Source of the DNA: Candidatus Endolissoclinum faulkneri L5
GTDB lineage: Bacteria > Pseudomonadota > Alphaproteobacteria > Thalassobaculales > Thalassobaculaceae
Reading direction: 5' to 3'
DNA: 64,000 nucleotides
Assembly (NCBI RefSeq): GCF_000510265.1
Contig: NZ_CP006745.1
Span: forward strand, 1,075,654-1,139,653
The notes under the pieces are model-generated. The model saw nothing but the letters and a program-made list of their open reading frames with translations, was not told the DNA's origin and ran no database searches. The position numbers and the translations under genes were made by a program. Below, one piece after another: positions 11,593 through 49,028 of the stretch; within the stretch, counting starts at the first letter, position 1; each line of letters starts with the position of its first letter.

Positions 11593-11642
11593 TAACATTC
11601 TTCTATGGTGTTAAGACTAACATTCTTCTATGGTGTTAAGAC
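11593..11642. repeat. 25-bp direct tandem duplication upstream of speD
   Basis: Two identical 25-base copies at 11593-11617 and 11618-11642. The second copy provides the left arm of the hairpin at 11628-11667, so either copy can pair with the single right arm. Confidence 0.95.
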
Positions 11643-11667
11643 TACCTTACTAGTCTTAACACCATAG
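11628..11667. promoter_or_regulatory. 17-bp perfect hairpin in the speD leader
   Basis: Arms 11628-11644 and 11651-11667 pair perfectly around CCTTAC, 130 bases before speD. Because the left arm is duplicated just upstream, two alternative stems are possible. A leader-control role for the speDE unit is conceivable, but no T-tract or known riboswitch is seen. Confidence 0.35.
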
Positions 11668-11797
11668 ACTTCGAGAAATATTTTACTTAGCTTAATTGAT
11701 TATGTCCAACTATACTTTTCATCATTAATTTTTACTTTTAGGAAACAACTATTTTAGGAATCAACTATGATAGTTTATAAATAGGGGGTTAAATTAT

Positions 11798-35215: not shown

Positions 35216-36202
35216 ATGAATAATAAAATACATATTCCTGTGCTGTTATCTGAAGTATTGAATGCACTAGCACCTACTTCAGGGAAGTGCTATCTAGATG
35301 GTACTTTTGGGTCTGGCGGTTACACTCGAGCAATACTAGAAAAAACTGATTGTACTGTTCTTGCCATTGATCGAGATCCTGACTCAATTGCTCGTGCCAA
35401 GATCATGAAAAAAGAATTTGACTATAGAAAGGGCAAGCATCTAATCCCTTTGCAAGGCAGGTTTAGCGAAATGTATATGCTTGCTAAAAATGCTGGATAT
35501 TCTACTGTAGACGGTGTAACTCTTGATTTAGGCTTTTCTTCTATACAAATGGATGAGGCTGAACGCGGCTTTTCTTTTCGCTGCGATGGTCCACTTGATA
35601 TGCGCATGGAGAGTAGCGGGATAACAGCAGCTGATTTAGTCAACACAGCAAGCAAAAAAAAATTGTCTGATATTATTTTCTATTTAGGCGAAGAGCGTTA
35701 TGCCTGTCGCATTGTTAAAGCAATTATCAGGGCAAGGAAGATTGCTCCCATTCATAGGACAAGTCAGCTTGCAACTCTTGTCCGCCGTTCAATACCTTAT
35801 TCAGGTCATAAAAATATTGATCCTGCTACTCGTACCTTTCAAGCCTTACGCATTTATGTAAACAATGAGCTAGAAGAGCTCGAGCATGGTTTGGATGCCG
35901 CAGAACGACTGCTAGCACCAGGTGGTAAGCTTGCAGTCGTTTCCTTTCATTCACTGGAAGATCGTAAGGTAAAGCTTCTATTACGTAAACGTTCTGGACA
36001 TACTTCCAACCCATCGCGGCATAATCTAGAAGCTATTGCTGGCAATTATGCAGGGCTTTTGCCTACTTTTGCCATTACAGCAACGCAACTAATCCTTCCA
36101 AAAAAAGATGAGATCTCTCACAACCCGCGTGCTCGTTCTGCTCGTTTACGGATTGCTCATCGGACTGAAGCTTTGCCATGGCAATCACAAACAAAACAAT
36201 AA
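35216..36202 (+). CDS. rsmH: 16S rRNA (cytosine1402-N4)-methyltransferase
   Basis: RsmH (MraW) methylates C1402 in the decoding centre of 16S rRNA and is normally the second gene of the dcw cluster. The 328-residue protein has HIPVLLSEVLNAL, YLDGTFGSGGYTRAILE near 24 (SAM binding), AIDRDPDSI, DGVTLDLGFSSIQMDEAERG near 106, FRCDGPLDMRM, and the C-terminal LAVVSFHSLEDRKVK near 240. Length is normal. Usual neighbours mraZ (before) and ftsL-ftsI (after) are both missing. A 64-base perfect palindrome begins 23 bases after its stop, so it is probably a single-gene unit. Confidence 0.97.
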   Translation: MNNKIHIPVLLSEVLNALAPTSGKCYLDGTFGSGGYTRAILEKTDCTVLAIDRDPDSIARAKIMKKEFDYRKGKHLIPLQGRFSEMYMLAKNAGYSTVDGVTLDLGFSSIQMDEAERGFSFRCDGPLDMRMESSGITAADLVNTASKKKLSDIIFYLGEERYACRIVKAIIRARKIAPIHRTSQLATLVRRSIPYSGHKNIDPATRTFQALRIYVNNELEELEHGLDAAERLLAPGGKLAVVSFHSLEDRKVKLLLRKRSGHTSNPSRHNLEAIAGNYAGLLPTFAITATQLILPKKDEISHNPRARSARLRIAHRTEALPWQSQTKQ

Positions 36203-36224
36203 AATTGCTTAGCGTTTTTCTTTG

Positions 36225-36288
36225 GTTATCGATCAGTAAATAGTATTAAATAATGATCATTATTTAATACTATTTACTGATCGATAAC
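36225..36288. repeat. 64-bp perfect palindrome after rsmH
   Basis: The sequence from 36225 to 36288 is its own reverse complement, with 32-base arms and no spacer, centred on GATC at 36255-36258. Such a loopless palindrome could extrude a cruciform or form a very stable RNA hairpin just after rsmH. No T-tract follows, so it is not a classical intrinsic terminator. Confidence 0.95.
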
Positions 36289-37026
36289 TTATGATATGCA
36301 ATCCTAGCACCAATCCAACTGTGTTAATTAATAAATATTCTTAACTTAATTAGTTTTTTTAATTATCATTTCTCTTGCGATATCTACGTAACTTATATTC
36401 TTTTTAAAAAATCTACTTATTGTTAAACTGTTTTTACATATCGCCGTTACTGTATAAATTTTTATCCAATATACTATCTATTACTACACAGACCATCGCA
36501 ACCTAATGCAGATGACAATTAGTTCGCAAATTATCTAAATTTACAATACTGACTTCAAAAATTACTAGTTGATTCTTATTAAGATATACATTGGTCATGC
36601 ACCTAAAGATACTCATCTAATCGGAATAACGAACGTCCATTGTAACAAATAGATAGCAAATTCATTATACAAAAAAGATTATAACCATCCCTCACATAAG
36701 AAGCTAAATAGCATCTTAATTGGAGATTAGTGGGTAAATTCGTTTTTTTTTGCTGAACACAAATTATTGCATGCTTTATCACCGTAAGAGTAATATAGTG
36801 GGATATTTTTTAAAGTAGCTAGAAGCTAGGACATTAAAGGAATGTGCAAACTAGCAAATAAGTCATTTAGACTTACCTTAAGTAACTTTAACTTCAACAT
36901 AATTATAAACTAGCGTTATTAAGTAATACTTAATAAATTATAAATTACGATAAAATCATAAACTGTGCTATATTAAGTCGTTTATGTATTATTAAAAATT
37001 AGTAATGCTATCTTTAAAGATAGACT

Positions 37027-37049
37027 AACCACGCAAAGTGGTTAAAATT
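37027..37049 (+). terminator. Small hairpin with T-tract ahead of murE
   Basis: AACCAC-GCAAA-GTGGTT forms a 6-bp stem and is followed by AAAATTTTTT. It has the form of a weak intrinsic terminator on the plus strand but no plus-strand gene ends nearby. Confidence 0.4.
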
Positions 37050-37085
37050 TTTTACTTAAATCATTATAAATTATATAAATGGCTA

Positions 37086-37119
37086 AATAAACTGTGTACT
37101 TGAAAGTACACAGTTTATT
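37086..37119 (+). terminator. 15-bp perfect hairpin with TGAA loop ahead of murE
   Basis: Arms 37086-37100 and 37105-37119 pair perfectly around TGAA, with TCTTTGG after it. It lies 232 bases before the preferred murE start and could end read-through or be a fossil terminator of the lost upstream genes. Confidence 0.45.
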
Positions 37120-37351
37120 TCTTTGGATAATATGCTTGTAAAAAACAAGTTTTATCATTTTTACGACAATGTTATCTATTGAACAATCTGCATTATATAT
37201 ATTTGAAATATTCAAAAGTATATCGCATTATCATCTAAACCATTTATTTAACATAAAAATACAATAGCTGAGATCGTTTTGTTTATTATGAATGGTTTTA
37301 AATTTTAACTCTATCTATGATTTAATTTACCTAAATGCTGGAGGTAGAGCC

Positions 37352-38815
37352 TTGCGTCTTTCTGCTCTTATTAATTATCAAGATTTGTCTTCTATAGCAC
37401 TGATTTCAGAAGATCCAGAAATACTCGGATTAACAACAGATAGCCGTAAGATACAGCCCGGATTTTTATTTGCTGCCATACCCGGCTCTAGAGTAGACGG
37501 CCGAAACTATATACCTGAAGCTATCGCTAACGGTGCGGTAGTTGTATTAACTACACCAAATATTATTGAATGCGCAGTCGGAATACTACGCGACAAAAAC
37601 CCTCGCCGACAACTAGCTTTAATTGCCGCTCGCTTTTACGGCAAGCAGCCGAAGATATGCGTCGCTGTAACTGGTACTAACGGAAAAACCTCAGTAGCTG
37701 ATTTTACCAGACAAATATGGAATAGTGCTGGGTATTTAGCAGCATCGATCGGCACCTTAGGAATCACTATCGAAGACATCATTACCAATCCAAACTTAAC
37801 TACTCCGGACGCAGTAGAACTTCACAGGACACTGCACAATCTCGTTCAAATAAATATTAATCATGCTGTTTTAGAAGCTTCTAGTCACGGACTAGACCAG
37901 TCTAGGCTTGATGGTGTTGATATTAAAGCTGCTGCTTTTACTAATCTAACTCGCGATCATTTCGACTACCATGTCAATATTGAGGATTATCGTACAGCTA
38001 AACTTAGCTTGTTTGAAAAAGTAATGCCCCCGGGCGGGACTGCTGTAATAAACATCGATTCGCCAGAATTTAATAATTTCTGTGAGGCAGCAAAGCATAA
38101 TCAACACAAGATTTTATCCTACGGAATGCGTCCGAGTGCCAGATTGCGTATCATTAGACAAAGGATCCAATCGAACGGCCAAGAAGTAGAAATTACTATT
38201 GATGGAAATTACTATTTGATTAAAATGGCCCTGCTTGGTAATTTCCAAGCTTGGAATGCTCTATGCGCCTTGGGTCTAGCGATAAGTAGCGGTACGCCAA
38301 TAAGACTGGCTTTAGAAGCCTTGCCTTTTTTAACCAGCGTACGTGGACGCTTAGAGCGAGTAGCAGTACTAGAAAATGAAGCTACAATTTATGTCGACTA
38401 CGCTCATACTTCAGATGCCCTGAGAACGGTTTTGCAAGCAATGCGGCCTCATACAAGTGGGAAACTATGGTGTATATTGGGCTGTGGTGGCGATCGTGAT
38501 CCTGGGAAACGATCAATAATGGGTGCTACTGCTGGCGAATACGCTGACCGAACAATCATTACTGATGATAATCCTCGTTCCGAGGACCCGGCCAGTATTC
38601 GGGCCGCCATTCTTGCAGCCTGCAAGAATGGCGTAGAAATTGCTGACCGTCGTACTGCAATATACGAGACTATTGCCCAACTCGATACTGGGGACGTACT
38701 AATAATAGCCGGAAAAGGTCATGAGAATGTACAGGAGATTAACGGGATAAAATATTCATTAAATGAGTCATACATTGTTCGTGATGCAATTGCCGCACAA
38801 AAGTATTTAGGATGA
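37352..38815 (+). CDS. murE: UDP-MurNAc-tripeptide synthetase
   Basis: MurE adds the third amino acid, meso-diaminopimelate in Gram-negatives, to UDP-MurNAc-dipeptide. The start is taken as the TTG at 37352: an excellent GGAGGTAGAG site lies just upstream and the product then opens MRLSALI like other MurE proteins. An ATG 60 bases earlier (37292) has no site. The 487-residue protein shows TTDSRKIQPGFLF, the ATP loop TGTNGKTSVADF near 110, the TTPDA substrate motif, LEASSHGLDQSRLDGV, YVDYAHTSDAL and DNPRSEDP near 410, a sequence associated with meso-DAP specificity. The stop overlaps the murF ATG (ATGA). A perfect 13-bp inverted repeat lies inside it at 38605-38633. Confidence 0.96.
   Translation: MRLSALINYQDLSSIALISEDPEILGLTTDSRKIQPGFLFAAIPGSRVDGRNYIPEAIANGAVVVLTTPNIIECAVGILRDKNPRRQLALIAARFYGKQPKICVAVTGTNGKTSVADFTRQIWNSAGYLAASIGTLGITIEDIITNPNLTTPDAVELHRTLHNLVQININHAVLEASSHGLDQSRLDGVDIKAAAFTNLTRDHFDYHVNIEDYRTAKLSLFEKVMPPGGTAVINIDSPEFNNFCEAAKHNQHKILSYGMRPSARLRIIRQRIQSNGQEVEITIDGNYYLIKMALLGNFQAWNALCALGLAISSGTPIRLALEALPFLTSVRGRLERVAVLENEATIYVDYAHTSDALRTVLQAMRPHTSGKLWCILGCGGDRDPGKRSIMGATAGEYADRTIITDDNPRSEDPASIRAAILAACKNGVEIADRRTAIYETIAQLDTGDVLIIAGKGHENVQEINGIKYSLNESYIVRDAIAAQKYLG
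38605..38633. repeat. Perfect 13-bp inverted repeat inside murE
   Basis: Arms 38605-38617 and 38621-38633 pair exactly around GCC, within the codons just after the DNPRSEDP motif. It would fold in the mRNA and in single-stranded DNA. Confidence 0.92.
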
Positions 38816-40206
38816 GTGCCCTATGGACACGTACCGCGGCCACTGAGGCGACCAAAGCTCAGGTATTCGGGAACGATTGGTTTGCTTATGGAATAAGTAT
38901 CGACAGTCGTAAAATTAAAATAGGTGATATTTTTATTGCACTACCTGGAAAACGTGTGGACGGTCATCAGTTTGTCATCTCTGCCCTGAATGCAGGCGCT
39001 TCTGCCGCTCTGGTCTCACATGTACCAAGTGGCCTAGATAATGCGCCTTTGTTAGTAGTAAAGGATGTCTTCGAAGCGCTGAAAAATTTAGCACACATGG
39101 CGCGAGCACGCTCTCATGCTCGAATAATCGCTGTAACCGGCAGCATCGGTAAAACTACGACCAAGGAAATGCTAGCCAGTATGCTTAGTGCACATGGAAA
39201 AACCATAGCCAGCGTTGGCAATCTAAACAATTCTATAGGCGCCCCAATATCCTTAGCTCGCTTACCGGCAGATTGCGATTTTGCAGTGTTTGAACTTGGT
39301 ATGAACCATGCCAATGAAATTAGACCTCTGGCCCAAATGATAGCGCCGCACGCTGCTATCATAACTAATGTTGAACCCGTGCATACTGAGTTTTTTGATA
39401 GCATCAACGATATTGCTGACTCCAAAGCTGAAATCATGGAAGGACTTCTACCTGGCGGAGTGATCGTCTTGAATGCTGATAACAATAGCTTTGTAAGATT
39501 AAGCAAAAGAGCTCAAGCGCTATGCATAAATCGAATCGTTACTTTTGGGCATAGTGCAATCTGCGATATACGTAGTATAAAAATTGAAACTTTTAGCGAT
39601 GGTACAAAAGTAATTGCTAGTGTAGAAGGTAAAGAAATTAACTGGACAGTCAGATGCATCGGTCGTCACTGGGGCTTGAATAGCCTTGGAGCTATTGCCG
39701 TCCTTCATGCCTTAGATCTTTCATTTGTACCATTACTCAACCAATTATCTGTATTTTCACCCATAAGTGGTCGAGGTAATCAGGTAATGATTCATACTAT
39801 AGATAACGGCACTGCTTTATTGATCGACGAAACCTATAATGCTAACCCGAAAAGTATGCGAATAGCGTTGTCTGTATTTGCTGTAACCCAAGGAAAGCGT
39901 AAAATTGTGGTACTAGGTGATATGCTAGAGCTAGGTACCATATCCGCGATTGCACATGTTAACTTAAAAAATGCTATTGAGGAGATAAAACCAGACTTAA
40001 TCTACTTATGCGGAGACGCCATGTCGTATTTACGTGACGCCTTGGGTAGAGAGCGAATAACCTTATGGACTAAGACAGCCAACGCACTTGCAAAATCAGT
40101 CGCAAATAACATAATGAATGGTGATGTAATTCTGATAAAAGGGGCTTTTGCAATGGGTATGCAAGAGATTGTATCTACTCTTAAAAGTAAGAGAAAGATT
40201 TTGTAG
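38812..40206 (+). CDS. murF: UDP-MurNAc-tripeptide:D-Ala-D-Ala ligase
   Basis: MurF joins D-Ala-D-Ala to the UDP-MurNAc-tripeptide, completing the cytoplasmic pentapeptide. The 464-residue protein shows SIDSRKIKIGDIFIALPG near 28, the ATP loop VTGSIGKTTTKEML near 105, ELGMNHANEIR, TNVEPVHTEFF, and the later DETYNANPKSM near 345 and VLGDMLELG near 368. All are canonical for the Mur ligase fold. The start overlaps the murE stop by four bases and mraY follows after 29 bases, so murE-murF-mraY-murD read as one operon. Confidence 0.96.
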   Translation: MSALWTRTAATEATKAQVFGNDWFAYGISIDSRKIKIGDIFIALPGKRVDGHQFVISALNAGASAALVSHVPSGLDNAPLLVVKDVFEALKNLAHMARARSHARIIAVTGSIGKTTTKEMLASMLSAHGKTIASVGNLNNSIGAPISLARLPADCDFAVFELGMNHANEIRPLAQMIAPHAAIITNVEPVHTEFFDSINDIADSKAEIMEGLLPGGVIVLNADNNSFVRLSKRAQALCINRIVTFGHSAICDIRSIKIETFSDGTKVIASVEGKEINWTVRCIGRHWGLNSLGAIAVLHALDLSFVPLLNQLSVFSPISGRGNQVMIHTIDNGTALLIDETYNANPKSMRIALSVFAVTQGKRKIVVLGDMLELGTISAIAHVNLKNAIEEIKPDLIYLCGDAMSYLRDALGRERITLWTKTANALAKSVANNIMNGDVILIKGAFAMGMQEIVSTLKSKRKIL

Positions 40207-40235
40207 AAATGCGGCATTAAAATAATAACCACAAT

Positions 40236-41321
40236 ATGATCTACGATTTTATCACTAATAAATTTAATATTATTAACATATTAAGCCCTTTAAGCTTCCG
40301 CTGCAGCGGAGCCGTGCTAACGGCATTATTTATTTCTTTTATACTTGGGCCATCAGCTATCCATTGGTTAAAAAGTAACCAAGTGAACGGCCAACCCATT
40401 CGAGATAACGGACCAGAAAGCCATCCTATAAGTAAAAAAGGTACACCTACTATGGGTGGATTGCTCATTTTGAGCGCGCTAATAATCTCCACTGTATTAT
40501 GGGCAAAACTATCAAATGTATATATTTGGATTACTTTATTTATTAATATTAGCTTTGGCGCAATTGGCTTCCTTGACGATTGGCTAAAGATAAATAGAAA
40601 GAATATCAAGGGATTAAAAGTTAAATTGAAGTTAGCAGCCCAAGTTGCTGTTGCGACTGGAGCAACTTTGGCTATCCTTTCCACCTTCGAAAGGACAACA
40701 GCCTTTGATATAGTCTTACCATTCTTTAATAATGTACTATTAGATCTAGGATGGTTTTTTATCCCATTTGCTGTTTTTACGATAATTGGCGCTGCAAACG
40801 CAGTAAATCTAACCGATGGTCTTGACGGGTTAGCTATAATGCCAGTAATAATCATTGGTAGTGTATTTGCTTTGATATCTTATATTGTCAGTAACACAAT
40901 ACTAGCGAGTCATCTACATATTTACCACTTACCGAACACTAGCGAACTGACAATTTTATGCAGTGGGCTGGTAGGAGCATGCTTAGGTTTTCTATGGTTT
41001 AACGCTCCGCCAGCTATGGTATTCATGGGAGACACTGGATCATTATCTTTAGGAGCAACGCTTGGAACCATAAGCATCATCACTAAGCAAGAATTAATGT
41101 TAGCGATTATTGGTGGTTTATTCGTATTTGAAACAATTTCAGTAATCATCCAGGTCGCTTCTTTTAAGCTAACGGGCAAACGCGTCTTCCGCATGGCTCC
41201 ATTACATCACCACTTCGAAAAAATAGGTTGGAAAGAATCCGCTATAGTAATCCGATTTTGGATTATCGCAATCATTTTAGCTTTGACCGGTTTATCCATA
41301 ATAAATTTTAGTTTTGCGTAA
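40236..41321 (+). CDS. mraY: Phospho-MurNAc-pentapeptide transferase
   Basis: MraY transfers phospho-MurNAc-pentapeptide to undecaprenyl phosphate, making lipid I at the inner membrane. The 361-residue protein has about ten hydrophobic helices and all the family landmarks: ESHPISKKGTPTMGGLLIL near 65 to 83, FLDDWLKI (catalytic Asp pair) near 111, NAVNLTDGLDGLA near 188, FMGDTGSLSLGA near 263 and the MAPLHHHFEKIGW histidine cluster near 321. Length is normal. The stop (TAATG) shares a base with the murD start, showing tight coupling. Confidence 0.97.
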   Translation: MIYDFITNKFNIINILSPLSFRCSGAVLTALFISFILGPSAIHWLKSNQVNGQPIRDNGPESHPISKKGTPTMGGLLILSALIISTVLWAKLSNVYIWITLFINISFGAIGFLDDWLKINRKNIKGLKVKLKLAAQVAVATGATLAILSTFERTTAFDIVLPFFNNVLLDLGWFFIPFAVFTIIGAANAVNLTDGLDGLAIMPVIIIGSVFALISYIVSNTILASHLHIYHLPNTSELTILCSGLVGACLGFLWFNAPPAMVFMGDTGSLSLGATLGTISIITKQELMLAIIGGLFVFETISVIIQVASFKLTGKRVFRMAPLHHHFEKIGWKESAIVIRFWIIAIILALTGLSIINFSFA

Positions 41322-42715
41322 TGATAAAATTAGATTTCGCAAAAAATAAGTGTTACGCTGTCATGGGACTCGGGATATCTGGGAGATTAGCGGCTCGAGC
41401 ACTAGCAAAGGCCGGTGCTAATGTTTTAGCCTGGGATGATATAGATAATGCTCGCAATCAAGTTTTGGGCATAAAAGGTGTGCAACTAGAAAATCTAAAT
41501 TTTCATGGACTTGATAAAGTCCATGCTTTAATTCTTTCCCCTGGCATCCCTCATACCTACCCAAAACCACATCCAGTAGCTGCAGAAGCCAAGAGAAGAG
41601 GTTTACCGATCATAGGTGACATAGAGCTATTACTTCGTGCTCTGCCTAATCGCAAAAATATAATCATTACAGGCACCAACGGGAAATCTACCACTACTGC
41701 ACTAATCAGCCACCTATTAACCTCAAATGGACTAAGAGTTGAAGTCGGTGGCAATCTGGGACGTCCTGTATTAAATTTTAATGACCCAGGCCGCGATGGG
41801 ATACTAGTATTAGAACTAAGTTCATACCAACTTGAACTTACCCCGTCAATTGCACCGACTATAGCAGTATGGCTTAATATAAGTATTGATCACATAGAGC
41901 GGCACGGTAACTTGGCTGGCTACGTTGCAGCTAAACAACGAATATTTGCTAACCAATGTTCCGACAATATAGCTATAGTAGTTGTTGATGATGAGCAATC
42001 TAGTATAGTCGCTAATACATTGCGCCAAAATGGAAATAATTTAATTGAGGTCTCTAATAAAAGACCAATCCTTGGTGGTATTTATGTTGATCAAGGCTTT
42101 CTAATCGACGCACGATCAAGCCAACCAAATAAAATATTTGATCTTAAGTCTGTTCAATCCTTGCCGGGTGCGCATAATGAACAAAACGCCGCCGCAGCTA
42201 CTGCCGCTTGCTTGGCTCTCGGCTTTAGAAAAGAAGTAATAGCAAGAACTATTACTTCTTTTCTAGGACTAGCACATCGTCTAGAATTAGTTGCTGTGTA
42301 CGACAATGTCACTTATGTGAATGATAGTAAAGCAACCAATGCTATTGCTACAGCACAGGCGCTTGCCACCTACAATCCAATTTATTGGATTGTAGGTGGA
42401 CGCGCTAAGGAAGGTGGTATTGAGAGATTAACGCCTTGGCTTAATCGAATTAAGCGAGCATATCTAATCGGCGAAAGTGCAAAAAATTTTTTACGCCAAA
42501 TTGGCAATAATTGCCCTACTGTACTATCTTACACACTCGAAAATGCAACATGGCAAGCACATGCTGAAGCACAGGAAGATAATATTTTGGGTGCAACAGT
42601 ACTGCTATCACCAGCCGCAGCTAGCTTCGATCAATTCCCTAATTTTGAAGTACGCGGTGAACAATTCAAGGCGCTAGTCCGCGCCCTAACTTACAATTAC
42701 AGTAAAAAATATTAA
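41321..42715 (+). CDS. murD: UDP-MurNAc-L-alanine:D-glutamate ligase
   Basis: MurD adds D-Glu as the second residue of the peptide stem. The 464-residue protein has an N-terminal VMGLGISGRLAARAL Rossmann element, LILSPGIPHTYP, the ATP loop ITGTNGKSTTTALI near 115, LELSSYQLE, NISIDHIERHG, NDSKATNA near 332 and IVGGRAKEGG near 357. All catalytic blocks are intact. Two long perfect inverted repeats lie inside the gene (42226-42265 and 42366-42399), unusual for coding sequence. In standard clusters ftsW follows; here 774 non-coding bases follow instead. Confidence 0.96.
   Translation: MIKLDFAKNKCYAVMGLGISGRLAARALAKAGANVLAWDDIDNARNQVLGIKGVQLENLNFHGLDKVHALILSPGIPHTYPKPHPVAAEAKRRGLPIIGDIELLLRALPNRKNIIITGTNGKSTTTALISHLLTSNGLRVEVGGNLGRPVLNFNDPGRDGILVLELSSYQLELTPSIAPTIAVWLNISIDHIERHGNLAGYVAAKQRIFANQCSDNIAIVVVDDEQSSIVANTLRQNGNNLIEVSNKRPILGGIYVDQGFLIDARSSQPNKIFDLKSVQSLPGAHNEQNAAAATAACLALGFRKEVIARTITSFLGLAHRLELVAVYDNVTYVNDSKATNAIATAQALATYNPIYWIVGGRAKEGGIERLTPWLNRIKRAYLIGESAKNFLRQIGNNCPTVLSYTLENATWQAHAEAQEDNILGATVLLSPAAASFDQFPNFEVRGEQFKALVRALTYNYSKKY
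42226..42265. repeat. Perfect 17-bp inverted repeat inside murD
   Basis: Arms 42226-42242 and 42249-42265 pair exactly around CAAGAA. They cover codons for roughly FRKEVIARTITSFLG, before the conserved AHRLE motif. A 17-bp perfect stem in coding DNA is far beyond chance for one gene. Confidence 0.95.
42366..42399. repeat. Perfect 16-bp inverted repeat inside murD
   Basis: Arms 42366-42381 and 42384-42399 pair exactly around two T bases. They cover codons for the conserved YNPIYWIVGG segment. Confidence 0.95.
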
Positions 42716-43489
42716 CATTTGTGTAAATAATTCTATAAATAATATTTAATGATATCAACTATTCAGATTGCTGATAGCAATAAAAAGCAATACGCTTATT
42801 ACTTATTTCGTTAATTAATATAATGAGTAGTATCCTTCTCTATTTTACGCATGGCTAAGCCAATTAACATCAAAAATTATTAGTTGACAAATAAATAATT
42901 TATTAAATTGTTATTATATAATTACCAGAATAATGGCTATTAAGCCATTTGCTAAGCTATATGTTATTGTAAATAGCGATATTATTAGATCACATTCTGT
43001 AAAAAATATTGCTAGCTATACAAACCATTATCTAGTTCAAAAAACTATTCATAATTGATATTATCTTTGATTGTTTGCTTCAAAGTTTTATTATACAGCT
43101 AAGAAATTGCTATAGAATAGAACAACTTTATAATAGTTATTTATTTAATTTAATACATTATTGTAATGTATACTTTAGGCAAAATGAATACTTTGATATT
43201 TTAGCATAAATTATCATTATTATGGCTTTATAGCTTAATCGCTATCGCAATAGCGCAATATTTCTATTTAAGAAATAACCTTTTGTACTTATTATTCTCA
43301 GTAATAGGGAAACATGCTTGTCAAGCAAAGCAGAATAAAGTAACCTTAAGACAGCATAAAAATGCAAGATGCTTGCATTAAGTACCATCTCTTAAACGTA
43401 ATGCCATTATACAGAACCTTTACTTCGTTATTATCATAATACTGAGTATTAAATTCTACTCTGGCGAAGATTAAGAAATTAATAATAGA
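42716..43489. other. Non-coding gap where ftsW normally lies
   Basis: Between murD and murG a standard dcw cluster has ftsW, about 1.1 kb. Here 774 AT-rich bases show no frame with SEDS-family membrane helices. The only structure seen is an 8-bp hairpin at 43361-43379. murG must therefore have its own promoter or depend on read-through. Confidence 0.75.
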
Positions 43490-44608
43490 ATGATCGATAA
43501 GCGTACTATTGTACTAGCTGCCGGAGGCACTGGGGGACATTTCTATCCAACTCAAGCTTTGGCTGAATTGTTAGTTGCAAGCGGTTACCGAGTAGTCCTA
43601 ATCACTGACACTCGTGGCTACTCTTTCAAAGAATCATTGCCCGATATTGAGGTTTATATAATCAAAGCATGCGGCATTGCCAAACTCAGCATTATTAAAA
43701 AAATAAAAGGTGCAACTAAACTATTGTTTGGATATTTTGATGCTTGTCGATTAATAAGTGAATTACATCCTACCGCTGTACTTAGCTTTGGAGGATATGC
43801 CTGCGTACCTACAGTACTTGCAGCGAGTCGCCGCGGTATTCCTATTATTCTTCACGAACAAAACGCTATAGCTGGTAGAAGTAATCAGCTATTGGCTAAA
43901 AAAGCTTCAATTATAGCTACTAGCTTTGAGCGAATCGAAAAAATTCACGAGCAAGATCAATACAAGATTATATTAGTCGGTAATCCAGTGCGCGCAGAGA
44001 TTAGAGCTATCCGGACAATGGATCCGCCACCGCTAACACCAGATGGCCCATGCGAAATTTTAGTGACTGGAGGTAGTCAAGGTGCTAGTATCTTTGCTAA
44101 GCTGATCCCAGATGCTATTGCCCTAATGCCAAAGCGAATTAGCTCTCGAATACGCATAGTTCAACAAGCTAGATTAAACGAAATTAACCAAGTAATAGCT
44201 GCTTATCGTAAGATAGGTATTAATGCTGATGTAAGCCAATTCTTCAACGATATGCCACAACGTCTTCGCGCAGCAAACTTGCTGATTTGTCGCTCTGGTG
44301 CTTCCACATTAGCAGAAAATACAGTCGCTGGGCGTCCAGCGCTGCTAGTCCCATACCCTAACTCAGTTGACGATCATCAAACCGCTAATGCTCGTGCTGT
44401 AGAAGCAGCAGGAGGCGGTATGCTTTTACCTCAGGCTAATCTTACGCCAAAATATCTCGCTCAATTACTCACAGATTTATTGAACAACACTAAACAGTTA
44501 TCTTACATGTCATCTGCTGCTCGCGCCTATGGCAGGCCAAACGCGGCAAAAGATCTCGCAAGCATTCTTCTATCTGTTATTGGTTTAGATAAAAATCTTT
44601 CAACTTAA
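43490..44608 (+). CDS. murG: UDP-GlcNAc:undecaprenyl-PP-MurNAc-pentapeptide GlcNAc transferase
   Basis: MurG adds GlcNAc to lipid I, making lipid II on the inner leaflet. The 372-residue GT28 protein has the N-terminal G-loop AAGGTGGHFYPTQALAEL near 10 to 27, LSFGGYACVPTVLAA, HEQNAIAGRSNQLLA near 124, VTGGSQGASIF near 193 and the donor-binding CRSGASTLAENTVAGRPAL near 264 with PYPNSVDDHQTANA. The loop reads HFYP where many enzymes have HLFP or HVFP, a mild variant. It begins the second block of the cluster and is followed by murC after 41 bases. Confidence 0.96.
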   Translation: MIDKRTIVLAAGGTGGHFYPTQALAELLVASGYRVVLITDTRGYSFKESLPDIEVYIIKACGIAKLSIIKKIKGATKLLFGYFDACRLISELHPTAVLSFGGYACVPTVLAASRRGIPIILHEQNAIAGRSNQLLAKKASIIATSFERIEKIHEQDQYKIILVGNPVRAEIRAIRTMDPPPLTPDGPCEILVTGGSQGASIFAKLIPDAIALMPKRISSRIRIVQQARLNEINQVIAAYRKIGINADVSQFFNDMPQRLRAANLLICRSGASTLAENTVAGRPALLVPYPNSVDDHQTANARAVEAAGGGMLLPQANLTPKYLAQLLTDLLNNTKQLSYMSSAARAYGRPNAAKDLASILLSVIGLDKNLST

Positions 44609-44649
44609 CACTAAAACTAGCTCCCAGTATCATAACAAAGTATCCTTGC

Positions 44650-46092
44650 ATGAACACCATACCTTTTACAATAGGTATTATACATTTTATCGGCATTGGC
44701 GGCATAGGAATGAGCAGTATCGCTGAAATACTGCATAGCCTTAGTTATCAGGTGCAAGGAAGTGACATTGTCGAAAATACAAATACAAAACGACTTGAGC
44801 AACTTGGTATTGGTATATTTATAGGTCATTCTGCAAATAATATAATTGATGCTTCCGTTGTGGTTATTTCTACCGCTATTAAGCTAGATAATCCAGAATT
44901 GATTGCCGCTCGAGAACGAATAATACCCGTAGTACATCGCGCTGATATGCTGAAAGAACTAATGCGCCTAAAAAGATCTATTGTAATCGCTGGGACTCAC
45001 GGCAAGACGACGACTACTTCCATAGTTTCAGCAGTATTAAATAGTGGTGGAATTGACCCTACGGTAATTAATGGGGGTATTATCAATGCTTATGGTACTA
45101 ACGCTCACCTGGGGAAAAGCGAGTGGATAGTACTAGAGAGCGACGAGAGCGACGGTAGTTTTACGAAACTACATGCAACAATTGCAATAATAACCAGCAT
45201 TGACCATGAACACCTAGACTTCCACGGCTCCTTAGATAACCTAAAGCAAGCCTTTGAAATATTTGTGCTAAATACATCATTCTACGGCTTCGTCGTACTT
45301 TGCCTAGACCATAAAGCGGTTAAGAGTATAATTTCGCAAGTATCAGATAGAAGAATTATTACTTATGGATTTAGCGCGCAGGCAGATATTCGCGCCGTTG
45401 ACGTGAATACAACCTCAAACGGAGTAAACTTTACGGCAGTAATTACCGACCGTACACACAGACAAACAAGGAGCATAGATAATATATTTTTTCCAATGTA
45501 TGGAAGACACAACATCCAAAACGCATTAGCTTCTATTGCTATAGCTGCTAACTTGGGTATTGATGATAGTCAAGTCCGCAATGCATTAAAAAAATTCACG
45601 GGTGTGCAACGTAGATTCACCACAAGAGGTGAATCTGCCGGCATAAAAGTGATAGACGATTATGCACACCATCCCGCAGAAATTGCTGCTTTATTATCCG
45701 CTGTTCGAGATATAACCAGGAAAAATCAAATAATTGCAGTTGTTCAACCGCACCGTTATACTCGTCTACGCGACCTATTTGAAGATTTCTGCTCTTGTTT
45801 TAATGAAGCCGACGCTGTAATTGTCTCTGAAGTCTATGCTGCGGGCGAAACAAGCATAACAGGCATTAGCCGAGATGATCTGGTATCTGGTATACGAGCC
45901 CATGGTCACCGCAAAGTAATAGCGTTAATCAATCCCATAGAACTTGCAGGCATGATAGTTAATCTTTGCGAGAAAGGTGATATAGTAGTTTGTCTTGGCG
46001 CAGGTAGCGTTACTGAATGGGCTCAGGCTTTGCCAGCCCAAATTGATCATATTATCAGCAGAAATGCATCCCAGAAATTAGCAACAGTATAG
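44650..46092 (+). CDS. murC: UDP-MurNAc:L-alanine ligase
   Basis: MurC attaches the first amino acid (L-Ala) to UDP-MurNAc. The 480-residue protein has HFIGIGGIGMSSIAEIL near 13 to 29, ISTAIKLDNPEL, the ATP loop IAGTHGKTTTTSIVSAVL near 116, LESDESDGSF near 163, SIDHEHLDFHG, GVQRRF and DDYAHHPAEI near 338, QPHRYTRL and GAGSVTEWA. Length and motifs are complete. A 9-bp inverted repeat (AGATTCACC/GGTGAATCT) falls near the GVQRRF codons at 45613-45636. It is followed by murB. Confidence 0.96.
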   Translation: MNTIPFTIGIIHFIGIGGIGMSSIAEILHSLSYQVQGSDIVENTNTKRLEQLGIGIFIGHSANNIIDASVVVISTAIKLDNPELIAARERIIPVVHRADMLKELMRLKRSIVIAGTHGKTTTTSIVSAVLNSGGIDPTVINGGIINAYGTNAHLGKSEWIVLESDESDGSFTKLHATIAIITSIDHEHLDFHGSLDNLKQAFEIFVLNTSFYGFVVLCLDHKAVKSIISQVSDRRIITYGFSAQADIRAVDVNTTSNGVNFTAVITDRTHRQTRSIDNIFFPMYGRHNIQNALASIAIAANLGIDDSQVRNALKKFTGVQRRFTTRGESAGIKVIDDYAHHPAEIAALLSAVRDITRKNQIIAVVQPHRYTRLRDLFEDFCSCFNEADAVIVSEVYAAGETSITGISRDDLVSGIRAHGHRKVIALINPIELAGMIVNLCEKGDIVVCLGAGSVTEWAQALPAQIDHIISRNASQKLATV

Positions 46093-46180
46093 TAATCTAC
46101 AGCTCTGTTGATTATTTAGCTGTCTAACAAATTAAGTAATAAATTCTTCATATTTGAGTAAACCATTAATACAGCTAGCA

Positions 46181-47095
46181 ATGAGTAAACTTATCGATCA
46201 ACTTCCTCAACTACGCGGTCAATATTATGAAAACATCTCACTCGCACCGTTAACATGGTTTAAAGTTGGCGGCCCCGCTGAAATTTTATACTATCCTGCT
46301 GATGAAAAAGATTTGATTTTTTTGCTTACTAATAAGCCCAAAGGCATGCCAGTAACAGTGATTGGTATCGGTTCTAATCTGCTGATTCGCTCCGGTGGGC
46401 TAGATGGTATAGTAATTCGTTTACGCAAACCATTTGCCAAGATCACAATTAATGATGACAAAATAATCGCTGGCGCAGGTGCTTTAGATGTGACAGTCGC
46501 CGCTAAAGCACAAAAATCTGGATTAAGTGGAGTAGAATTCTTATCCGGAATTCCGGGATCTATAGGTGGTGCACTGCGGATGAATGCTGGTGCTTATGGT
46601 AAAGAAGTATGCGATGCACTAATATCAGCACAAGTCATAGATCCGCTTGGCAAGCTTTATACTCTTTCTACTAAAGATATGGGTCTTTCATACCGTAATA
46701 GCAATTTACCACTTGATTGGATTATCATGAACGCAACTTTCCAGGTAAAACCTGGGATTGATCCGGAAAATATTTCTAAAACGATGCGCGAAATTCAGAA
46801 TGCTCGTAATAGCACTCAGCCATGCCATGAACGTACATGCGGGTCTACCTTTACTAATCCTGTAGGATATAAAGCATGGAAATTGATCAATAAAGCCGGC
46901 TGCAGCGGTTTGCGCATAGGCAGCGCTATGGTATCAGAATTACACTGTAATTTTTTGATTAATACTGGCAACGCTACCTCAGATGATATCGAAAGTCTTG
47001 GAGAAGAAGTACGTTTTCGGGTTAAGAAAACAAGCGGCCTTGAACTAGATTGGGAAATTCACAGAATTGGCAAAGCACTAGATATAGGTAAGTAA
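46181..47095 (+). CDS. murB: UDP-N-acetylenolpyruvoylglucosamine reductase
   Basis: MurB is the FAD enzyme that reduces enolpyruvyl-UDP-GlcNAc to UDP-MurNAc with NADPH. The ATG at 46181 gives 304 residues and a family-like start (SKLIDQLPQLRG). A TTG at 46154 in the same frame would add nine residues and neither has a clear ribosome site. Motifs: APLTWFKVGGPAEI near 22, GIGSNLLIRSGGLDGIVIRL near 64 to 83, LSGIPGSIGGALRMNAGAYG near 125, the type I catalytic CGSTFTNP near 217 and ELHCNFLINTGNAT near 250. ddl begins two bases after its stop. Confidence 0.94.
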   Translation: MSKLIDQLPQLRGQYYENISLAPLTWFKVGGPAEILYYPADEKDLIFLLTNKPKGMPVTVIGIGSNLLIRSGGLDGIVIRLRKPFAKITINDDKIIAGAGALDVTVAAKAQKSGLSGVEFLSGIPGSIGGALRMNAGAYGKEVCDALISAQVIDPLGKLYTLSTKDMGLSYRNSNLPLDWIIMNATFQVKPGIDPENISKTMREIQNARNSTQPCHERTCGSTFTNPVGYKAWKLINKAGCSGLRIGSAMVSELHCNFLINTGNATSDDIESLGEEVRFRVKKTSGLELDWEIHRIGKALDIGK

Positions 47096-47097
47096 AA

Positions 47098-48018
47098 ATG
47101 AATCGTAAAAGTATTCATGTAGCTGTTCTAAAAAATGGCTTTTCGCTAGAAAGATCAGTATCTCTATCGTCTGCTCAGTCATGCGTCAAGGCTTTGCACC
47201 AAGCAGAATTTCAGGTTACTGAGATTGATGTCGATCGTAACATTATCTGTAAACTGAAAGAAGTACAGCCAGATGTGTGCTTCAACGCTTTGCATGGATC
47301 ATTTGGCGAAGATGGTACAATCCAAGGTCTGCTAAACATATTGAATATCCCATACACTCACTCTGGCGTACTTGCTTCTGCTATAGCAATGAATAAACAA
47401 ATAGCAAAAGCTACCTTTGTTAGCATAGGGTTACGCTGTCCTAGCGATAAAGTAGTTACACCTATCTCGTTTAAATATAGCGAACCGATGGAGCCACCCT
47501 ACGTAATAAAACCACTTGACCAAGGTTCTAGTATCGGCATTCATGTTATCAAAAAAGGTGATAGTTGCCTTCCAGCTTGGGATAAATGGAATTTCGGTAA
47601 TCGAGTTTTAGTAGAAAAATTCATTGACGGCCGTGAATTAACTGTCTCTATTCTTGACAATAATCCACTAGAAGTAACTGAAATAACCTCTTCAAACAAG
47701 TTTTACGATTATGACGCTAAGTATGGCAAAGAAAAATCGCATCATGCTACACCAGCTCAAATACCTTCATCAATTCGTAATGAAGCATTGAATATGGCTG
47801 TTCAAGCACATAAATTTATCGGCTGTCGTGGAGTGACCCGCTGCGATTTTCGTTATGATGATACTAAATTAGATCCCGGTACCTTATACCTTCTAGAATT
47901 AAACACACAACCAGGTATGACACCAACATCCATCCTAGCAAAACAAGCTGCTTATTGTGGAATATCTTTTCCAGAACTAGTTACTCGCATGGTAAATAGT
48001 GCTCAATGTGACCATTAA
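47098..48018 (+). CDS. ddl: D-alanine--D-alanine ligase
   Basis: This ATP-grasp enzyme makes D-Ala-D-Ala for MurF. The 306-residue protein has VAVLKNGFSLERSVSLSSAQ at the N-terminus (the usual GG-x-SxERxVS region reads KNGFSLERSVS), FNALHGSFGEDGTIQGLLN near 62, YTHSGVLASAIAMNK near 82 to 96, YVIKPLDQGSSIGI near 138, and the C-terminal LELNTQPGMTPTS near 267 with metal-binding Glu and Asn. Length is normal. In nearly all dcw clusters the next genes are ftsQ, ftsA and ftsZ; here lpxC follows at once. Confidence 0.95.
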   Translation: MNRKSIHVAVLKNGFSLERSVSLSSAQSCVKALHQAEFQVTEIDVDRNIICKLKEVQPDVCFNALHGSFGEDGTIQGLLNILNIPYTHSGVLASAIAMNKQIAKATFVSIGLRCPSDKVVTPISFKYSEPMEPPYVIKPLDQGSSIGIHVIKKGDSCLPAWDKWNFGNRVLVEKFIDGRELTVSILDNNPLEVTEITSSNKFYDYDAKYGKEKSHHATPAQIPSSIRNEALNMAVQAHKFIGCRGVTRCDFRYDDTKLDPGTLYLLELNTQPGMTPTSILAKQAAYCGISFPELVTRMVNSAQCDH

Positions 48019-48116
48019 CCTATTCGTTTGTCCCAAAAGAACATCTGTCACTATATAAATCTTGGCATAAACTTACAAATAATCCACAGTGAAGATGATT
48101 AATGCTAGGAATGACA

Positions 48117-49028
48117 ATGGCGATACGATTTTCAAAATATAAGGCAACGTTTTGTCAAAAAACTCTTAAGCAATCCATTGCCTGTAGCGGAGTAGGGCTA
48201 CACTCAGGCAAGGATGTTACTATGAGACTCTGTCCAGCTCCGATAAATCATGGAATAGTCTTTCATCGTACCGATATAACTGATTGTAAGCAACTAATAT
48301 CTGCAAGATACGATAATGTAGTTGATACAAAACTTTGTACAGTTATCGCTAATAAAGACAATATCTGCGTCGGTACGATTGAGCATTTGATGGCTGCCTT
48401 TGCTGGTTGTGAAATTAACAATGCATTAGTTGAAGTTGATTGTACCGAACTAGCGATCATGGACGGATCTTCTGAGCCCTTTGTCTGCATGATTGATTGT
48501 GCTGGCATCGTCGAGCAAGATGCACCTCGCCAAGTCATTGAGATCCGCAAACCGATTACTGTTGACATAGACGATAAAAGAGTAACTTTAAGTCCTTCTA
48601 ACTGCTACGCAATCGATTTTGAGATTGATTTTGCAAGTAAAGCTATTGGTCGTACTGTATGGGGAGTAGAGATGGTAAATGGTACATTCCGTCATGAGAT
48701 TGCCCAGGCACGCACTTTTGGATTATTAGAAGAAGTAGAACGCCTACAAGCTAACGGATTAGCGCGTGGTGGAAGCTTAGATAACGCTATCGTAGTTGAC
48801 GGAGACAAAGTATTAAACCATGAAGGTCTGCGCTTTAAGGATGAGTTCGTACGCCATAAAGTACTAGATTGTGTAGGTGATTTATACCTTGCTGTTGCAC
48901 CGTTAATTGGCCGTGTAAACGCAGTAAAAGCAGGCCACCAGATAAACAACGCTGCCCTGCGAGCCCTTTTCGCTGATCCAAGTGCATACAAGATTGTCGA
49001 CTATGAGGATAGTCATGCTATCGAATAG
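48117..49028 (+). CDS. lpxC: UDP-3-O-acyl-GlcNAc deacetylase
   Basis: LpxC performs the committed step of lipid A synthesis and is zinc dependent. The ATG at 48117 is preferred because AGGA lies six bases upstream; ATGs at 48102 and 48111 are in frame. From 48117 the protein has 303 residues. Landmarks: QSIACSGVGLHSGKDV near 19 to 34, GTIEHLMAAFAG with zinc-ligand His90, AIMDGSSEPFV near 113, QARTFGLLEEVERL near 197 to 210, and HKVLDCVGD with His247 and Asp251, then AGHQINNAALRALFA with catalytic His274. It ends the dcw-derived cluster. Its presence shows that the cell still makes lipid A. Confidence 0.96.
   Translation: MAIRFSKYKATFCQKTLKQSIACSGVGLHSGKDVTMRLCPAPINHGIVFHRTDITDCKQLISARYDNVVDTKLCTVIANKDNICVGTIEHLMAAFAGCEINNALVEVDCTELAIMDGSSEPFVCMIDCAGIVEQDAPRQVIEIRKPITVDIDDKRVTLSPSNCYAIDFEIDFASKAIGRTVWGVEMVNGTFRHEIAQARTFGLLEEVERLQANGLARGGSLDNAIVVDGDKVLNHEGLRFKDEFVRHKVLDCVGDLYLAVAPLIGRVNAVKAGHQINNAALRALFADPSAYKIVDYEDSHAIE

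Follow-up and report, generated by a model that had tools for sequence, protein, structure and literature searches.

The perfect 64-base palindrome downstream of rsmH in Candidatus Endolissoclinum faulkneri L5 and the shorter hairpin at 37085-37120, ahead of murE, are best explained as products of neutral, genome-wide quasipalindrome correction by template switching. We give this reading a probability of about 0.75; under it, the two repeats are not deletion scars, do not belong to an element family, and are mostly not terminators. Most likely, a mutational process that is already known, and that shows itself unusually clearly in this organism, produced the palindrome along with many other repeats.

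Candidatus Endolissoclinum faulkneri L5 is a genome-reduced tunicate symbiont with a single-contig genome of 1,518,636 bases, of which we analyzed a stretch of 64,000 nucleotides (the window; positions below are those of the window unless stated). A search with rsmH identified the sister strain, Candidatus Endolissoclinum faulkneri L2 (NC_019566.1). A paper on strain L5 reports the loss of recA, mutSLH, and ftsZ, as well as low coding density and, in both strains, strongly degraded intergenic DNA, and its main text does not mention palindromes or inverted repeats (PMC3851785).

The palindrome and the slot between rsmH and murE

The features of this part of the window are as follows.

35216-36202, plus strand: rsmH, 83% identical to L2
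36203-37351, no strand: noncoding slot between rsmH and murE, the position of ftsI in a free-living relative, with no ftsI remnant
36225-36288, no strand: loopless 64-base perfect palindrome, unique in the genome (arm comparison, genome search, and fold)
37026-37044, plus strand: short stem-loop with a T run, a plausible intrinsic terminator (terminator scan)
37085-37120, no strand: perfect inverted repeat with 17-nt arms and a 2-nt loop, of the same class as the genome-wide perfect repeats
37352-38815, plus strand: murE, with a probable TTG start
42716-43489, no strand: noncoding slot between murD and murG, the place of ftsW in relatives, without a perfect inverted repeat with arms of at least 12 nt

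Cluster genes named without a family search carry presumed names or those of an earlier sequence-only reading of this DNA, and these names are backed by matches to relatives.

The palindrome noticed in the sequence-only reading is real. Its two 32-nt arms (36225-36256 and 36257-36288) are 100% complementary with zero loop, and 22 bases separate it from the end of rsmH at 36202. Its fold has a z score of -13.3, and none of 200 shuffles equaled it. It is the longest loopless repeat in the L5 and L2 stretches examined; longer arms, of 37 nt, occur in an L5 repeat with a 7-nt loop.

That reading also placed a lost ftsI in the slot, and this is borne out by free-living G003, in which an ORF with a transpeptidase match sits between rsmH and murE. 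The gene order in G003 is rsmH, this ORF (ftsI), murE, murF, mraY, murD, an ORF with an FTSW_RODA_SPOVE match (ftsW), murG, murC, and murB. G001 shares this order, although its murE could not be placed (off-frame query), and ftsL was not identified in any relative. L5 and L2 each encode two transpeptidase proteins, compared with four or five in each of four free-living relatives, and one SEDS protein, compared with two in relatives. The transpeptidase proteins of L5 are PBP2/MrdA and a PBP1A-type protein, and its single SEDS protein is RodA, which adjoins mrdA. On the basis of these tallies and the cluster order, both sisters have lost ftsI and ftsW. Neither slot holds an ftsI or ftsW remnant at E ≤ 10, and the ftsI slot is 1149 bases long in L5 and 499 in L2. 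Read from the TTG at 37352, which is probably its start codon, the murE product is 64.7% identical to that of the relative.

Losses in the dcw cluster (35216-49028) extend beyond ftsZ, the loss of which is already in print, to ftsI and ftsW in both strains; despite this, L5 retains PBP2, RodA, PBP1A, and the mur genes. The gene next to lpxC, which we take to be ddl, lies 83 bases from it in L5. The ORFs at this place in G003 are presumably ftsQ and ftsA, judging from their position, and they have no match in the window at E < 1e-3.

Perfect inverted repeats across both sister genomes

We counted perfect inverted repeats with arms of at least 14 nt and loops of at most 12 nt. The window holds 12, compared with 0.2 in simulated sequence (5 simulations). 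This count and the fold of the palindrome against its shuffles exclude a chance origin. The excess extends to 50 repeats in 404 kb of L5 and 53 in 400 kb of L2, compared with 0.0 simulated for each strain (3 simulations each), and arms reach at least 20 nt in 18 and 21 of the repeats, respectively. Six of the L5 repeats and 10 of the L2 repeats are loopless. With 4th-order null models trained separately on coding and noncoding DNA, and with genes defined as ORFs that have a match in the sister, noncoding DNA held 43 repeats versus 0.0 in L5 and 46 versus 0.2 in L2, and genes held 7 versus 0.0 and 5 versus 0.0. An excess over chance of perfect arms with short spacers, as expected of quasipalindrome correction, is therefore what both genomes display. 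Further perfect inverted repeats in the window include the following.

11627-11668, no strand: 18-nt arms, 6-nt loop
26878-26917, no strand: 18-nt arms, 4-nt loop
52647-52701, no strand: 25-nt arms, 5-nt loop
55343-55386, no strand: 19-nt arms, 6-nt loop
63580-63627, no strand: 22-nt arms, 4-nt loop

The repeats are private to each strain. Orthologous places could be assigned to 49 of the 50 L5 repeats and 51 of the 53 L2 repeats, and a perfect repeat with arms of at least 14 nt lay near that place in only two cases for each strain. The 103 L5 and L2 repeats gave no cross-matches to one another at E ≤ 1e-4. Private positions, missing T tails (see below), and the lack of shared sequence are therefore easier to reconcile with mutation than with selection or with a mobile family.

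For comparison, we sampled 1.43 Mb of distinct stretches from 36 other genomes, with G+C contents of 0.20-0.68 apart from one stretch taken as masked. They yielded 33 repeats with arms of at least 14 nt, 26 of them from three small genomes (15 in G520, 6 in G507, and 5 in G641). Arms of at least 18 nt occurred four times and arms of at least 20 nt not at all, a comparison limited by the probably higher gene density of most of these genomes relative to L5. Arms of at least 20 nt at the density of L5 and L2 are thus unusual. The excess in G520 (20% G+C) is milder, with 15 repeats in 160 kb, compared with 1 in one simulation, and no arm of 20 nt or more. The small genomes G507 and G641, with six and five repeats per 80 kb, have more than most genomes sampled, and G507 includes a loopless repeat of 36 bases.

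Other readings of the palindrome and hairpins

The palindrome and hairpins could instead be selected terminators, or stabilizers of mRNA 3' ends, that close the rsmH unit and shield murE. Strong folds and a location downstream of rsmH speak for this, as does a terminator scan of 36100-37500, which returned three sites (37026-37044 on both strands and one inside murE; shuffle mean, 0.5). At 37026-37044, a 7-bp stem with a 5-nt loop is followed by a T run; these are the elements of an intrinsic terminator, and from its sequence this hairpin alone plausibly resembles one. The scan lists neither the 64-base palindrome, which has no T run behind it, nor 37085-37120, whose T-rich tail is mostly its own stem; neither joins a GC-containing stem directly to a T tract. 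Both hairpins that had been called terminator-like in the sequence-only reading exist, and the description suits only the first of them; the division of the operon into at least three units, put forward in that reading, is a hypothesis. The same scan found no site in the L2 slot.

As a class, the repeats also lack the marks of terminators. T-rich tails follow 0.16 of intergenic repeats in L5 versus 0.24 of random sites, and 0.20 versus 0.25 in L2. The repeats are not located at gene ends as intrinsic terminators are: the 60 bp next to gene 3' ends show no enrichment (0.05 versus 0.04 in L5 and 0.05 versus 0.05 in L2), and their positions are not conserved between the sisters. Within 200 bp of gene 3' ends, the fractions are 0.14 versus 0.14 in L5 and 0.23 versus 0.15 in L2. 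L2 repeats also lean slightly toward convergent spacers (17 versus 11.9 expected), a lean that is absent in L5. Because of these two tendencies in L2, a minority of the repeats could be terminators, and a single hairpin possibly has a fortuitous effect on transcription. Selection for termination or stabilization is nevertheless an unlikely explanation of the palindrome and hairpins together. Without the genome-wide background, it would be unwise to take long hairpins in such genomes for terminators, scars, or regulatory elements.

In the sequence-only reading, a deletion scar or a cruciform was suggested for the palindrome. On this view, the deletion of ftsL/ftsI left the palindrome behind, or the palindrome brought the deletion about as a cruciform. 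Its place inside the slot, 22 bases past the rsmH stop codon, agrees with this, but the sister strain largely refutes it and leaves it very improbable. L2 carries the same loss, and its slot holds no perfect inverted repeat with arms of at least 12 nt. Moreover, L2 matches bases 1-174 of the L5 slot, palindrome site included (70%, E = 3e-9, blast); because L2 DNA aligns across the site, the palindrome is not an L5 deletion junction. A scar would sit at the junction and be present wherever the deletion is, and the palindrome does neither. Perfect inverted repeats with arms of at least 12 nt are likewise missing from the ftsW slots of L5 and L2 and from the ddl-lpxC junction of L5, while about 50 repeats similar to the palindrome are spread over 404 kb. 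No relative with ftsI was seen to carry the palindrome; in a search of 40 other genomes, the slot had matches in L2 and to 28 bases of G012 and no others. The palindrome has no importance as a sign that ftsI was lost.

An artefact of sequencing or assembly, arising from fold-back in the library or the assembler, is equally improbable. The genome is a short-read metagenome assembly made with Velvet at k 61 and 67, which would allow such an error, but re-mapping reported 96 variant sites (PMC3851785), and the 101-bp reads are long enough to span 64 bases. L2, a separate assembly, has the same repeat density, and repeats occur inside conserved genes. Finally, a dispersed palindromic element (REP, MITE, or Rickettsia-type) would account for many repeats of similar geometry, but it would exist in multiple related copies, and within the stretches examined it is refuted by the missing cross-matches among the 103 repeats and by the palindrome itself, whose arm, with up to 3 mismatches allowed, matches nowhere else in the genome. 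A plasmid collection gave no match to 36150-36350.

Template switching, repair genes, and known systems

The preferred reading, quasipalindrome correction by template switching, can be compared with repeats inside genes, where the sister alignments are reliable.

38605-38633, no strand: perfect inverted repeat inside murE, imperfect in L2
42226-42265, no strand: perfect inverted repeat inside murD, imperfect in L2
42366-42399, no strand: perfect inverted repeat inside murD, whose right arm is identical to L2 and whose left arm departs from L2 so as to match it

In the last of these, the right arm is identical to L2 at 16 of 16 positions and the left arm at 12 of 16. Another L5 gene has a 39-base repeat that differs from an imperfect L2 form by a 6-nt gap and substitutions. 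In the other direction, a loopless 52-base perfect palindrome lies inside a gene at 854375-854426 of the L2 genome, and its L5 counterpart is a quasipalindrome. Such gene repeats with imperfect sister forms bear the marks of quasipalindrome correction. The L5 counterpart of the L2 palindrome also shows one or more paired changes that match across its two arms, and the arms of that palindrome may evolve in concert.

We then compared the repeats with their sister segments more broadly. Sister sequence could not be aligned for one of eight gene repeats (arms of at least 12 nt) in L5 and two of eight in L2. Opposite L5 gene repeats, the L2 segments are more hairpin-like than randomly chosen gene segments (mean fold rank, 0.24; five of seven in the best quarter). 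The L5 segments opposite L2 gene repeats are not unusually hairpin-like (mean rank, 0.55; one of five in the best quarter), and neither are the sister segments of intergenic repeats (mean ranks, 0.51 and 0.54). Identity in intergenic flanks is little above that of shuffles (0.588 versus 0.569 for L5 and 0.676 versus 0.615 for L2), and at this divergence the sister alignments did not identify the donor arms of intergenic repeats. Among intergenic repeats, the arms differed significantly in L2 (P = 0.0087, flank identity of at least 0.6) and not in L5 (P = 0.97), and repeats in genes showed no significant asymmetry. Compensatory changes showed no clear excess. An imperfect sister version is thus clear for several gene repeats; for the slot palindrome and for intergenic repeats as a group, the comparison did not show one.

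At the slot palindrome itself, the flanks are 0.76 identical between L5 and L2 and the arms 0.69 and 0.66, about equal, with neither arm clearly original. We considered an imperfect hairpin in L2 as the precursor and rejected it: 88 of 200 shuffles fold as well as the L2 segment, which is average among L2 noncoding segments (fold rank, 0.52). Because no precursor was found, neither arm is clearly original, and intergenic alignments are poor, we infer the template-switch origin of this palindrome from the class to which it belongs. During replication, a nascent 3' end would fold back on, or switch to, a nearby inverted copy, and extension from that copy would turn one arm into an exact reverse complement of its partner. 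Where the DNA is noncoding, as in the ftsI slot, there would be no selection against the products, so they would last until point mutations decayed them.

In E. coli, exonucleases I and VII act to limit quasipalindrome mutation. Neither sister has a match to xseA or recA, and recJ is present. A mutS match is missing from L5, and L2 has only a scrap with four stop codons. This short mutS-like stretch (G005:C1:1004828-1004968 in the L2 genome; E = 6.6e-5) is probably the remnant of a mutS pseudogene. SbcD had no match in either sister, from which little follows, because two free-living relatives also gave only matches below the cut-off.

We examined whether these losses could explain the excess. 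No xseA match was found in 18 of 387 genomes of the class, both sisters included. We rejected the idea that losing exonuclease VII alone is the cause, as the 12 genomes sampled from the other 16 without xseA show no repeats with arms of at least 14 nt in 368 kb, a sample that includes 2,946 bases of G314 without counted G or C, taken as masked. Joint loss of xseA and mutS as a sufficient cause was rejected as well, as G200, G275, G170, and G317, which have neither, show none in 160 kb. recA is absent from both sisters and present in the other 14 of 16 genomes tested. In a wider set, 11 of 299 genomes had no recA match: the genome of the window, G520, a draft with 96% completeness, and eight drafts that are less than 90% complete. 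G520 is a complete single-contig genome, and its repeat excess is the milder one described above; G507 and G641 are recA positive and still hold their six and five repeats per 80 kb. In E. coli, constitutive template switching is not raised in recA mutants and is increased 13-fold in recB and 9-fold in non-cleavable lexA mutants (PMC6357072). Taken together, the missing excess in genomes without xseA and mutS, the milder excess in G520, the recA-positive G507 and G641, and the result with E. coli recA mutants do not let us assign the excess to any one repair loss.

Repeats would also build up if neutral DNA were lost slowly. Tentatively, and at somewhat less than even odds, we suggest that in a lineage without recA, mutS, and xseA, template switching runs nearly unchecked and that fold-back copying is a major force on dead DNA and surviving genes alike. 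A new long perfect palindrome would then arise about once per hundred point substitutions, a rough steady-state estimate that divides all repeats, genic ones included, by noncoding length and assumes neutral decay. Template switching is a candidate route by which multi-residue changes enter surviving genes, such as murD and murE, of a clonal symbiont, and template-switch mutations in L5 and L2 are perhaps dense enough for direct study with two sister strains.

Literature searches returned no work on Endolissoclinum repeats, by title or opening of the abstract, among the matches listed, and none on endosymbiont genomes with perfect palindromes or on quasipalindromes and exonuclease VII. The available passages of PMC7202029 and PMC13155455 contained nothing on repair or symbionts. 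Template-switch correction of quasipalindromes is established in E. coli reporters (PMC6357072) and in yeast genes (PMC8604942). The repeats described here resemble the Ripley model and the E. coli lacZ QP reporters in that imperfect repeats become perfect, changes and indels cluster in an arm, and spacers are short, here inside murD and other genes. They differ from the reporters in being known from fixed differences between two symbiont strains, in their high density, and in arms of up to 37 nt. Earlier work reportedly described a genome-wide excess of such repeats over random expectation and attributed it to mutation, as we do for L5 and L2. Unlike in that work, arms of at least 20 nt are common in the two strains and were found in none of the 36 comparison genomes.

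In a survey of inverted-repeat frequency in bacterial genomes, 28 of the top 200 belong to endosymbionts, which account for 1% of the lowest 200 (PMC10434271). Because endosymbionts were already among the genomes richest in inverted repeats, the novelty of our finding is lowered. The main text of that survey does not use the term Endolissoclinum, and no comparison of sister strains was seen in its passages (PMC10434271). Nematomorph mitochondrial genomes offer a further likeness, with many perfect inverted repeats in a small genome and within genes; their coding palindromes reach 284 bp, and template switching has been proposed as the origin (PMC6649704). Four of those palindromes lie at the same place in all four species (PMC6649704), whereas the repeats of L5 and L2 are mostly noncoding and private to each strain.
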